From: Candidatus Nitrosopumilus sp.
GTDB taxonomy: Archaea; Thermoproteota; Nitrososphaeria; Nitrososphaerales; Nitrosopumilaceae
Assembly: GCA_013203245.1 (NCBI GenBank)
Contig: JABMOR010000117.1
Coordinates: 1-34,858 of the forward strand
Length of the DNA stretch: 34,858 nucleotides
Direction of reading: 5' to 3'
Numbering within the stretch: the stretch's first letter is position 1; every line of letters starts with the position of its first letter. The translations under genes and the position numbers were made by a program. Below the pieces are notes generated by a model that had not been told where the DNA came from, made no database searches, and worked only from the letters and a program-made list of their open reading frames with translations. Below are positions 30,501 through 34,858 of the stretch, piece after piece.

Positions 30501-31739
30501 ATGTTTTCAAAGGATATACTGATCTTGACTAGAACCTCACTACAATGCAGAGAATGTAAAAAAGAGTATGACACTGCTTTCAAGTATATTTGTGATGAGT
30601 GTTTTGGCCCACTAGATGTAAAATATAATTTTCCTAAATTAACAAAAGACACATTTTCTAACCGTGGACATACCTATTGGAGATATTTTGAATTACTTCC
30701 AATAGAAAATAAATCAAACATTGTAAGTATTGGTGCTGGCATGACTCCTCTCATAAAGGCTGACAACCTTGGAAAAAAACTAGGATTAAACAATCTTTAC
30801 ATTAAAAATGATTCTGTAAATCCAACATTTTCATTCAAAGATAGACCAGCTGGGGTTGCAATATCTAAAGCTAAAGAATTTGGATTGTCCGCAGTCGGAT
30901 GTGCATCTACTGGTAATTTAGCTTCAGCAACTGCAGCACATGCAGCAAAAGCTGGATTGCCATGCCATGTGTTTGCACCAAGCAATCTTGAGATGGCAAA
31001 GATTACACAAGCATTATCGTACGGTGCAAACTATATCGCAGTTGATGGGACATATGATGATGCAAACAGAATTGCAGCACAAATTGGTGACAGTAAAGGA
31101 ATCGGTATAGTGAACATTAACATGCGTTCTCATTACGTGGAAGGCTCTAAAACATTTTCATTTGAAGTTGCAGAGCAACTTGATTGGCAAGTCCCTGATC
31201 AATTAATAATACCAGTTGGAAGTGGTGCAATGCTTAATGCAATTTGTAAAGGATTTGAAGAACTACAGACTGTTTCACTGCTTGATGATATTTCTAACAT
31301 GCATATGATTGCAGCACAACCACATGGTTGTGCACCCATAGTTGATGCATTTAAGAAAAATAGCAAAGAAGTGATTCCAGTTGAGCATCCTGATACAATT
31401 GCAAAAAGTTTGGCAATCGGTGATCCTGGAGATGGTAGATACGTTTTGAAACGTTTAGCACAATACAACGGATTTGCCGAAGAATGTAACAATAAAGAAA
31501 TTTTAGACGCTATACTACTTTTGGCTAGAACTGAAGGAATATTCACCGAGCCTGCAGGTGGTGTATCAATATCTGTTCTTCAAAAAATGGTTGAGCAGGG
31601 AAAAATTGACAAAAATGATCGAGTAGTGTGTTATGTTACTGGCAATGGTCTTAAAGCAACTGAATCAATCATGGAAGTTTTACAAAAGCCTAAAGTAATG
31701 AAGGCAAACATTGAAGAAATTTCGGCGGTAGTGAACTGA
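30501..31739 (+). CDS. thrC: Threonine synthase / fold-type II PLP enzyme with N-terminal zinc ribbon
   Basis: CRECKKEYDTAFKYICDECFGPLDVKY zinc ribbon; GMTPLIKADNLGKKLGLNNLYIKNDSVNPTFSFKDRPAGVAISKA PLP-lysine motif; STGNLASATAAHAAKAG. Confidence 0.88.
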   Translation: MFSKDILILTRTSLQCRECKKEYDTAFKYICDECFGPLDVKYNFPKLTKDTFSNRGHTYWRYFELLPIENKSNIVSIGAGMTPLIKADNLGKKLGLNNLYIKNDSVNPTFSFKDRPAGVAISKAKEFGLSAVGCASTGNLASATAAHAAKAGLPCHVFAPSNLEMAKITQALSYGANYIAVDGTYDDANRIAAQIGDSKGIGIVNINMRSHYVEGSKTFSFEVAEQLDWQVPDQLIIPVGSGAMLNAICKGFEELQTVSLLDDISNMHMIAAQPHGCAPIVDAFKKNSKEVIPVEHPDTIAKSLAIGDPGDGRYVLKRLAQYNGFAEECNNKEILDAILLLARTEGIFTEPAGGVSISVLQKMVEQGKIDKNDRVVCYVTGNGLKATESIMEVLQKPKVMKANIEEISAVVN

Positions 31740-33070
31740 TGGCTGATATCACATTTACAATTCCTTCCGTGCTTAATCAAAGCGGCGGAGAAAAAAAAAC
31801 AGAGATTTCAGCTGATTCCTTAACTGATGCATTTGCAAAATTATCTGAAATCATGGGTGATGACTTTAAGCGTCGTGTATTAGAAGGAGATGGAACTCCA
31901 CGTTCATTGATAAATATCTACATCAATGGAAAAAATGCAAAATTCTCCAGCGGCATGGAAACTCCTCTAAAAGATGGCGATGAAGTTTACATATTGCCTG
32001 CAGTAGCTGGTGGTTCAGAAGAACTTTCTCCAAAAGAATTGGATAAATTTTCAAGACAAGTGATGCTTGAAGAAATTGGCTATGGTGGGCAATTAAAATT
32101 AAAAAATGCCAAAGTTTGTGTTGTCGGAACTGGTGGTTTAGGACATCCGATTATCTCTAGACTAGCTACAATGGGTGTTGGAACCTTACGTATTGTTGAT
32201 AGAGATGTAATAGAACTCTCAAATCTACATAGACAAATGATGTTTGATGAAGATGATGTTGGTCAAGTTAAAGTTGAAGTTGCTGCAAAAAAATTACATA
32301 AACTAAATTCTGATTGTAAAATTGAAGCATTGGCTATATCTGTAAATGATTACACTGCATTAGAAGTTGTTGAAGGTTGTGATGTTGTAATTGATGCACT
32401 TGATAGTGTCAATGCAAGATATGCATTAAACAAAGCATGTGTAAAATTTGAAATTCCATTTGTCACAGGAGCTGCAGTTGGAACATCTGGACAAGTATTT
32501 ACTGTTTTACCAAAAAAATCTGCATGTTACTATTGCATGTTTCCATCACTTGATGAGGACTCAATGCCTACCTGTAGTATTGAGGGTGTTCATCCACCAA
32601 TACTTTCCATAGTTGGTGCAATTGAAGTTGCAGAAGCTGTTAAAATAATTCTTGGAAAAACTCCAAATCTTTCTCAAAGAATTTTACATATTGATTTAGA
32701 AAACTTGGATTTTAATTTCACCAAAACTTTCAGAGTTGAGGAATGTCCAATTTGTGGAACAGGACAACTTGAAGAGATACCACAAGAAGAATTGATTTTG
32801 GAAGAATTATGCGGACGTAATCGCGGTAAGAGAACTTATTCTATTACTCCTACAGAAACATTTGATATTGATGTAGATGTTGTAACTAATATTGCAAAGG
32901 AAAAAGGTTTCATTGTAGAAAATCAGGGAAATCTGGGTTTGTCAATGAGAACTAATGAATTATCTGTAAGTTTTATGAAGAAAGGATCTGCTGTTATCGT
33001 GGGTTCAAAAGATGAACATGATGCTATGTTGCTATACAAGATCTTACTAGGCCAAGAGATCAAGGCATAA
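31739..33070 (+). CDS. MoaD/ThiS-type beta-grasp (ubiquitin-like) domain fused to an E1-like ThiF/MoeB adenylyltransferase
   Basis: Residues 1-92: MoaD/SAMP-like ending INIYINGKN...TPLKDGDEVYILPAVAGG; from about 98: LDKFSRQVMLEEIGYGGQLKLKNAKVCVVGTGGLGHPIISRLATMGVGTLRIVDRD, RQMMF, CYYC/CPIC zinc pairs and PTCSIEGVHPP E1 features. Confidence 0.93.
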   Translation: MADITFTIPSVLNQSGGEKKTEISADSLTDAFAKLSEIMGDDFKRRVLEGDGTPRSLINIYINGKNAKFSSGMETPLKDGDEVYILPAVAGGSEELSPKELDKFSRQVMLEEIGYGGQLKLKNAKVCVVGTGGLGHPIISRLATMGVGTLRIVDRDVIELSNLHRQMMFDEDDVGQVKVEVAAKKLHKLNSDCKIEALAISVNDYTALEVVEGCDVVIDALDSVNARYALNKACVKFEIPFVTGAAVGTSGQVFTVLPKKSACYYCMFPSLDEDSMPTCSIEGVHPPILSIVGAIEVAEAVKIILGKTPNLSQRILHIDLENLDFNFTKTFRVEECPICGTGQLEEIPQEELILEELCGRNRGKRTYSITPTETFDIDVDVVTNIAKEKGFIVENQGNLGLSMRTNELSVSFMKKGSAVIVGSKDEHDAMLLYKILLGQEIKA

Positions 33071-33285: not shown

Positions 33286-34858
33286 ATGAATAACGAAATA
33301 GGACGTAAAATAACTAGTCTTACATTAATGACAATTATGTTAGCAGGCGGTATGGTCATTGCTTCACCAGGAATGGTGCCAATGGCTCATGCAGCTAACG
33401 CTAACCTATTTGTTTCCGCAGAGAACTCACAGTTCAATAACTACATGTCAGGACCTCAGGTCATTGAAGTAGTTGTAATTGATAGTGACATTAACGATAC
33501 AGATCAAGCAAAAGGTGAACCAGACGTTACAATAAACGGCAAGAACCTGAGAATGGTTCAAGCCGTAGATGGTAACTGGTATGGTTACTTTGCAGACAGA
33601 ACACAAGCATCTATTGCAGATTATACCGCAAAAACCAAAGGCCAAGGATTAAACTTTGGTACTTTATGTGCAACTGGAACAACAACTGAAACATTCCTTG
33701 GCATAAGTGTCAGTGATACAGTTGGTGTTGCAATTCCACTAGGCAACCTTACAACAGCTGCCGGTGCAAACGGTACATCTACAGGTAGTCCACTTACAAT
33801 TCAATGTTCAGATGTATTTAATGCAGCAATTGCATTTACAAATAATACTGGACACATGAATGTTGTAAGAGAAGCAAAACAAATGAATACACAATTAACT
33901 GGTGATAGAATCGGTCAAATTGGTGTTTCAGATGTTGATGTCTGGCCTTTCGTTCAACTATACTCTCTAAACCCAACTGGTAACGTTGTCGTACAGTATA
34001 ACAAAGGTGGTGGTGCTCAATCAGTATCACTTACTTTTGATACTGTTGATCAATTTGCTAGTGCAAGTTTAGATAGTTCTGTATATACTCGTAATGCACA
34101 AGTACACGTTACTGTAACAGATCCATGGTTAAACATAGATCCAACCGATGAAGATTCATGGACATTTGGAACTTTGGCAACAAACCTTAGTACCAACTAC
34201 CAAGTCTTCAATGAAAACGGTGCAGCCGCAGGAGCTAGTGTCGCAAATGGTATCATAAACATTAAAGGAAATCTTACATCTATGATGATTGAAGATAACG
34301 GTATTTTGATACTAAATGCAGATACACAAAACAGTGGAACCGCAGTTTTGACATTACAAGACACAGATGATTCTATCATCACTTGTAGTTCACCACAACT
34401 TGCATCCACATGTAGAGTAGCAACTGATGCTAATGGTAACGCAGTAACTGATGCATTAGGATTACCAGCAGGAAGTCAACCAATTACAATTACAGAACAG
34501 GGACCCAATAGCGGAGTCTTTGGAACATATGATGAATCAGATGTTTCTACAATCAAAGTTACAAATACTGCCAAAAGAGGCACATCTGCAACTATTGATT
34601 ACAATGAGACTCCTGTTACAGTTCTAGTAGGCTTTGGATTTGCAACAATTGATATTCAAGCAACTGATGATGAATGGAACTCTGGTGAAGAGATTCCAAT
34701 AGTCTTAGTTGATCGTGATGCAAACAAGAACAGCAGAGTAGATGAAGATCTAGATTTGAATGATCCATCAGTTACATTGATTCCATCATTAGTAACTGGT
34801 GATCCATTTACAATCGGTGAAACATCAAACTCTACTGGACCTGTTGCCATCTACATCG
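33286..34858 (+). CDS. S-layer protein (Nitrosopumilus-type), 3'-truncated by window edge
   Basis: Manual translation from ATG 33286: MNNEIGRKITSLTLMTIMLAGGMVIASPGMVPMAHAANANLFVSAENSQFNNYMSGPQVIEVVVIDSDINDTDQAKGEPDVTINGK..., signal peptide with AHA-like cleavage site, Asp/Asn/Thr-rich beta domains; I found no in-frame stop to the window end. Confidence 0.88.
   Translation, partial: MNNEIGRKITSLTLMTIMLAGGMVIASPGMVPMAHAANANLFVSAENSQFNNYMSGPQVIEVVVIDSDINDTDQAKGEPDVTINGKNLRMVQAVDGNWYGYFADRTQASIADYTAKTKGQGLNFGTLCATGTTTETFLGISVSDTVGVAIPLGNLTTAAGANGTSTGSPLTIQCSDVFNAAIAFTNNTGHMNVVREAKQMNTQLTGDRIGQIGVSDVDVWPFVQLYSLNPTGNVVVQYNKGGGAQSVSLTFDTVDQFASASLDSSVYTRNAQVHVTVTDPWLNIDPTDEDSWTFGTLATNLSTNYQVFNENGAAAGASVANGIINIKGNLTSMMIEDNGILILNADTQNSGTAVLTLQDTDDSIITCSSPQLASTCRVATDANGNAVTDALGLPAGSQPITITEQGPNSGVFGTYDESDVSTIKVTNTAKRGTSATIDYNETPVTVLVGFGFATIDIQATDDEWNSGEEIPIVLVDRDANKNSRVDEDLDLNDPSVTLIPSLVTGDPFTIGETSNSTGPVAIYI

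Follow-up and report, generated by a model that had tools for sequence, protein, structure and literature searches.

A sulfur carrier-E1 fusion beside a MetM-type enzyme in ammonia-oxidising archaea: a probable cleaved precursor in homocysteine synthesis

INTRODUCTION

Proteins in which a ubiquitin-like domain precedes an E1 enzyme have been reported before: Iyer et al. described N-terminal ubiquitin-like domains on some bacterial ThiF proteins in 2006 (PMC1779556), and Makarova and Koonin listed "Ubl-E1-TBP in Thaumarchaeota" in 2010 (PMC2948915). The latter has the same architecture as the protein analyzed here, from the same archaeal group and with the C-terminal domain included; neither the fusion architecture nor its C-terminal domain is new, as an earlier note on this DNA had suspected of such fusions. 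Unlike the present analysis, the accessible part of the 2010 account proposes no function, processing at the GG, or PLP partner for the fusion, and the term "threonine synthase" is absent from the paper.

In the CysO-CysM-Mec+ system of Mycobacterium, the GG thiocarboxylate of a carrier feeds a PLP enzyme, a logic shared with the locus proposed here; that system differs in making cysteine rather than homocysteine, in being encoded by separate genes, and in using a PLP enzyme of another subfamily. Thiocarboxylate-dependent methionine synthesis in Wolinella succinogenes, for which PMC5764234 cites Krishnamoorthy and Begley (2011), reportedly employs a carrier, an E1, a JAMM protein, and a homocysteine synthase. 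MetO, the carrier of the Streptomyces MetM-MetO system, is also said to act as a thiocarboxylate. On the account of Hasebe et al. (2024) given in PMC12172450, its partner MetM synthesizes homocysteine from O-phosphohomoserine; PMC12172450 itself reports weak homocysteine activity for a cyanobacterial homologue. In the MoaD-MoaE protein of Deinococcus, as in our locus, a carrier is fused through its GG to an enzyme, and the JAMM protein DR0402 releases the GG-linked carrier (PMC8832034); here, however, the partner is MoaE and the pathway is that of molybdopterin. At least one homocysteine pathway was yet to be discovered, according to Price et al. (PMC5764234), and in the literature searched, we found no paper on homocysteine synthesis in ammonia-oxidising archaea and no function proposed for the carrier-E1 fusion.

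We analyzed a window of 34,858 nucleotides from Candidatus Nitrosopumilus sp. (assembly GCA_013203245.1, contig JABMOR010000117.1, forward strand) alongside a survey of 151 genomes of the order, whose families are labelled f1 (that of the window), f2, and so on; the window's own genome is G000.

RESULTS

A sulfur carrier, an E1, and a C-terminal domain in one reading frame

The open reading frame at 31739-33070 (+ strand, ATG start, 443 aa) encodes a beta-grasp sulfur carrier ending in ILPAVAGG, followed by an intact E1 of MoeB/ThiF type and then a C-terminal domain. The carrier (MetO/CysO/MoaD-like) takes up codons 1-92 (31739-32014, +). Residues 46-92 match the sulfur-carrier family ThiS (Pfam PF02597; E 6.5e-9, 36.6 bits against a cut-off of 22.5), and the domain searched alone gives a ThiS match with E 5e-10. 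Residues 1-92 align, GG included, with Mycobacterium tuberculosis CysO (3dwg; E 1.5e-12), an A. orientalis ThiS/MoaD-family protein (4n6e; E 7e-12), and an M. acetivorans SAMP1 homologue (2l52; E 2e-7). The predicted full-length structure recovers a beta-grasp-like domain at residues 1-88. These results agree with the MoaD/SAMP-like beta-grasp domain ending in AVAGG that the earlier note had read from the sequence, and Gly91-Gly92 is indeed encoded at 32009-32014 (+). The GG lies inside a stretch, residues 89-111, that is disordered in the model (pLDDT <50) and contains the junction SEELSPKELD (codons 93-102; 32015-32044, +).

The E1 core, codons 104-330 (32048-32728, +), matches ThiF (Pfam PF00899) with E 8e-72, and its top Foldseek matches are ThiF and MoeB (1zud, 1zfn, and 1jw9). 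The alignment of fused orthologues shows no variation at R165, K178, D222, C263, C266, C279, C336, or C339; C279 and the zinc cysteines also line up with their counterparts in E. coli ThiF. The adenylation fold, the catalytic Arg, Lys, and Asp, the four zinc cysteines, and the conserved Cys of MoeB/ThiF/UbaA-type enzymes are all present, which bears out the view that the E1 following the carrier is complete. The second zinc cysteine pair forms the CPIC motif (codons 336-339; 32744-32755, +), the first being C263 and C266. An extension of about 90 aa after CPIC had been taken as foreign to a minimal MoeB; it exists, at about 104 aa, but is not unusual. The model places an alpha/beta domain at about residues 350-436 (32786-33046, +), NCBIfam PRK12475 aligns across residues 102-438, and Makarova and Koonin describe this part as the TBP-like domain that most such archaeal E1s have (PMC2948915).

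With domains of MoaD and MoeB type, the protein could also be assigned to molybdopterin synthesis, the carrier acting as MoaD and the E1 as MoeB. MoaE was found in no f1 genome, however; we rejected a molybdenum cofactor role for the family and regard this reading as scarcely credible.

Two other proteins of this genome may be recorded here. The KEOPS subunit Cgi121 (L002:1357-2130, G000:C98) begins with a ubiquitin-like domain whose end is an internal HGG; Makarova and Koonin had already recorded this fusion (PMC2948915). Farther along the window, a large protein encoded at 33286-34857 starts with what resembles a signal peptide and is cut off by the window's end; it is putatively a surface protein of the S-layer type of marine ammonia-oxidising archaea.

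The upstream "threonine synthase" is akin to MetM

The gene at 30501-31739 (+), whose stop codon shares one base with the start codon of the fusion gene, encodes a PLP enzyme (PF00291, E 3.8e-73) which, from synteny, tree, and motif, is predicted to be a MetM-type, O-phosphohomoserine-dependent homocysteine synthase. Curated models call it threonine synthase, with a score above the cut-off of TIGR00260 (thrC), and it might be a plain threonine synthase with no part in the function of its neighbour. It carries the motif RSHYVEGSKT, however, lacks NP[FY]R[IL]EGQKT, and falls outside the group of ThrC proteins linked to thrB, whereas a second such protein in the same genome (L057) has NPFRIEGQKT, as in thrB-linked ThrC. 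The operon motif is common to 26/26 archaeal and 81/81 actinobacterial proteins.

The top relative of the PLP protein in a plasmid collection is from Nonomuraea (45% identity), where a SAM riboswitch lies upstream and a free 91-aa carrier ending in AVAGG is encoded downstream. A genome scan yielded 80 further actinobacterial loci, with a carrier in 78 of them, a SAM riboswitch in each of the 20 loci checked for one, and no E1 within the 3-kb flanks of any of the 80. In the tree, a single clade (support 100/100), apart from the ThrC group, unites the archaeal operon proteins with the protein of Nonomuraea, on which their placement in the MetM clade is anchored. The archaeal locus thus resembles MetM-MetO, as far as the available account of that system goes, in having a ThrC-like PLP enzyme followed directly by a gene for a GG-ending carrier, and the two are kin by tree and motif. 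They differ in that the actinobacterial carrier is free and its locus is preceded by a SAM riboswitch, whereas the archaeal carrier and E1 form one protein and no SAM riboswitch was found in the window. We do not regard this absence as disqualifying, because the riboswitch is a regulatory trait and, in the accessible part of the published description, was noted upstream in S. albulus and is missing in cyanobacterial homologues (PMC12172450). The annotated "threonine synthase" is therefore probably a homocysteine synthase, as judged from its sequence relationships.

Given that the closest solved relatives of the carrier are CysO proteins, the pair might instead make cysteine, as a CysO/CysM-like system acting on O-phosphoserine. 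Against this, the PLP protein is of the threonine-synthase kind, with weak likeness to cysteine synthases, and its actinobacterial kin stand under SAM riboswitches, a methionine signal; we consider a cysteine system quite improbable.

Presence and loss of the pair across the order

A carrier-E1 match was found in 133 of the 151 genomes. The PLP gene lies immediately upstream of the carrier in 50/50 loci first examined, whether fused or split; f6, f12, and f13, a few lineages that branch deeper, have an E1 at another site. Among f1, f2, f3, and f8, both genes occur in 67 genomes and neither in eight (G076, G141, G147, G055, G104, G140, G019, and G119); one more genome, G134, has an E1 fragment alone, at a contig edge. 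Five of the genomes without either gene (G076, G141, G147, G055, and G104) are candidates for needing external homocysteine or methionine.

Searches for other known homocysteine synthases (genuine PF01053 enzymes and the methanogen-type HcyBio) found none where the operon is fused: strong PF01053 matches occur only in f9, f10, G003, G005, and G016, and HcyBio only in f7, f12, and f13. Genomes of f1 and f8 encode a PF02574 methyltransferase, also where the operon is missing, and the operon-less genomes may therefore still have the methyl cycle; joint loss of operon and methionine synthase was tested for and not seen. PF01717 is missing throughout f1 and from almost all of f8.

The carrier-E1 might alternatively serve mainly in tRNA thiolation of the Urm1/Ncs6 kind or in sampylation, its PLP neighbour being a coincidence or the plain threonine synthase discussed above. 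Nearly all f1 genomes, with or without the operon, do have an Ncs6-like gene (TIGR00269), but the gene is kept in G076, G141, and G147, where the fusion is lost, which weakens tRNA thiolation as the main role. The strict linkage and joint loss of the two genes likewise argue against coincidence, and we think this alternative improbable, even though one JAMM type of these archaea resembles a desampylase (see below).

Fused and split relatives

Carrier and E1 form one protein in f1, f8, f3, and part of f2, and every f1 and f8 member with the fusion has a full-length reading frame with no stop. In f4, f7, f11, f14, f16, and f17, a separate carrier gene stops directly after the GG (AVSGG-stop, AVGGG-stop, or AVAGG-stop), and the E1 gene begins a few bases on. 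In several split relatives, a single stop codon is all that interrupts the match within one frame, so the loss of one stop would fuse the genes, and the shortest fused junction, nine residues, is about as long as the stretch before the same motif in free E1s. From these comparisons, we infer that the fusion arose through stop-codon loss.

A different carrier-E1-rhodanese fusion, also with an internal GG, occurs in f5, f9, and f10, where it adjoins a JAMM gene and either a PF01053 enzyme or a cysteine synthase. These loci (L096 and L131 in f10, L097 in f5) are likely a second, independent thiocarboxylate-dependent cluster for sulfur amino acids. The Wolinella system differs from the f1 locus in using a PF01053-type enzyme, and a layout similar to it is seen in f9 and f10 and not in f1.

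Evidence for cleavage after the GG

LPAVAGG (residues 86-92) is unchanging in the 28 aligned fused orthologues, whereas the residues after it drift and the length of the junction spans 9 to 47 residues. An invariant GG in 28/28 sequences is not chance. Three genomes of one f2 genus encode a split carrier with a tail after the GG, of 9 (G062), 8 (G001), and 15 (G039) residues; since the carrier and E1 genes of G062 do not overlap, its tail calls for more than a simple frame error. The split carriers of this genus (L132:1676-1981, L095, and L094) look like a fusion come apart, or, where the genes overlap, like a programmed frameshift. Among the actinobacterial relatives, the carrier ends at GG in 50/78 and at GG-Cys in 22/78, and a few have longer tails; the GG-Cys and longer-tailed carriers (in L133-L212) would need trimming ahead of activation.

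The known E1 chemistry requires a free C-terminal carboxylate and would not adenylate a carrier with residues beyond the GG. A trimming step is hence the simplest reading, and the invariant GG, the junction predicted to be disordered, and the split relatives with tails of 8 to 15 residues together make cleavage after Gly92 likely. Alternatively, the fusion may stay intact, the carrier domain docking the E1 on the PLP enzyme while sulfur travels, with no carrier thiocarboxylate, either as free sulfide or bound to the E1 as a persulfide. The stop-free frame in all f1 and f8 fusions is in keeping with this, as is a junction long enough in some orthologues to serve as a tether; an intact protein would nonetheless have no need of an invariant GG and would run against the E1 chemistry just described, and split relatives exist. 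We judge it unlikely.

The earlier note had weighed cleavage, by a JAMM/MPN-type protease, against a tethered pseudo-substrate. The first is favored by the free carriers that stop at GG, the invariant GG, the tails of the split forms, and the JAMM genes that the family's complete genomes carry; nothing supported the second. A dead regulatory domain would fit an internal GG and a fusion fixed in whole families, but not the absolute conservation of LPAVAGG beside drifting residues. The free SAMP/MoaD homologues that the note had thought worth seeking were also not seen in f1: each genome has at most two ThiS-family matches, and both carrier-type domains appear to be fused, so no other substrate for the E1 is in sight. 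A pseudo-substrate role is accordingly very unlikely.

JAMM proteases as candidates for the cut

Prok-JAB (JAMM) proteins, usually two, are encoded in all f8 genomes and in all f1 genomes except G000; the search for a JAMM gene that the note had called for thus succeeded in the family's other members, but found none in the window's own genome by six-frame searches of its incomplete assembly. One type, JAMM-A, matches the haloarchaeal desampylase model with a score below the cut-off. Judged by match strength, and in counts uncorrected for kinship, JAMM occurs in 48/49 genomes with a fused or tailed carrier versus 7/15 with a verified GG-stop. JAMM genes are also retained in operon-less genomes and do not adjoin the operon elsewhere, so they have other work, and their tree is poorly resolved, with no single type assignable to the fusion. 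We are somewhat less sure of a JAMM protein as the cutting protease than of the pathway and of cleavage.

DISCUSSION

We propose that the fusion is a precursor joining a MetO-type sulfur carrier to its activating E1. Once made, the protein would be cut after Gly92, most likely by the archaea's own desampylase-like JAMM; the E1 part would adenylate the freed GG end, which would then be converted to a thiocarboxylate and pass its sulfur to the MetM-type PLP enzyme encoded upstream. This enzyme would make homocysteine from O-phosphohomoserine, and the PF02574-type methyltransferase would convert homocysteine to methionine. A role in the homocysteine pathway seems to us as likely as cleavage itself, and because the two support each other, the joint reading, of a precursor cut after its GG, thiocarboxylated, and feeding sulfur into homocysteine synthesis, is still probable, if held with less confidence than either part; it draws on comparisons among genomes. 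More tentatively, and with somewhat less than an even chance in our estimate, all homocysteine of ammonia-oxidising archaea may come from a MetM-type enzyme and an E1-fused carrier that becomes active only after a desampylase-type JAMM cut; proteolysis would then be indispensable for making methionine in organisms that rank among the ocean's most abundant microbes.

Standard enzymes do not account for homocysteine synthesis in these archaea, and our searches found none of them in the fusion-bearing families; the operon looks like the archaea's missing route for sulfur into methionine. If this is true, the "threonine synthase" gene is misnamed across the order, and the methionine prototrophy of these archaea would be readable from their genomes. 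The locus would also offer a simple test system for whether ubiquitin-like domains fused through their GG must be cut to function.
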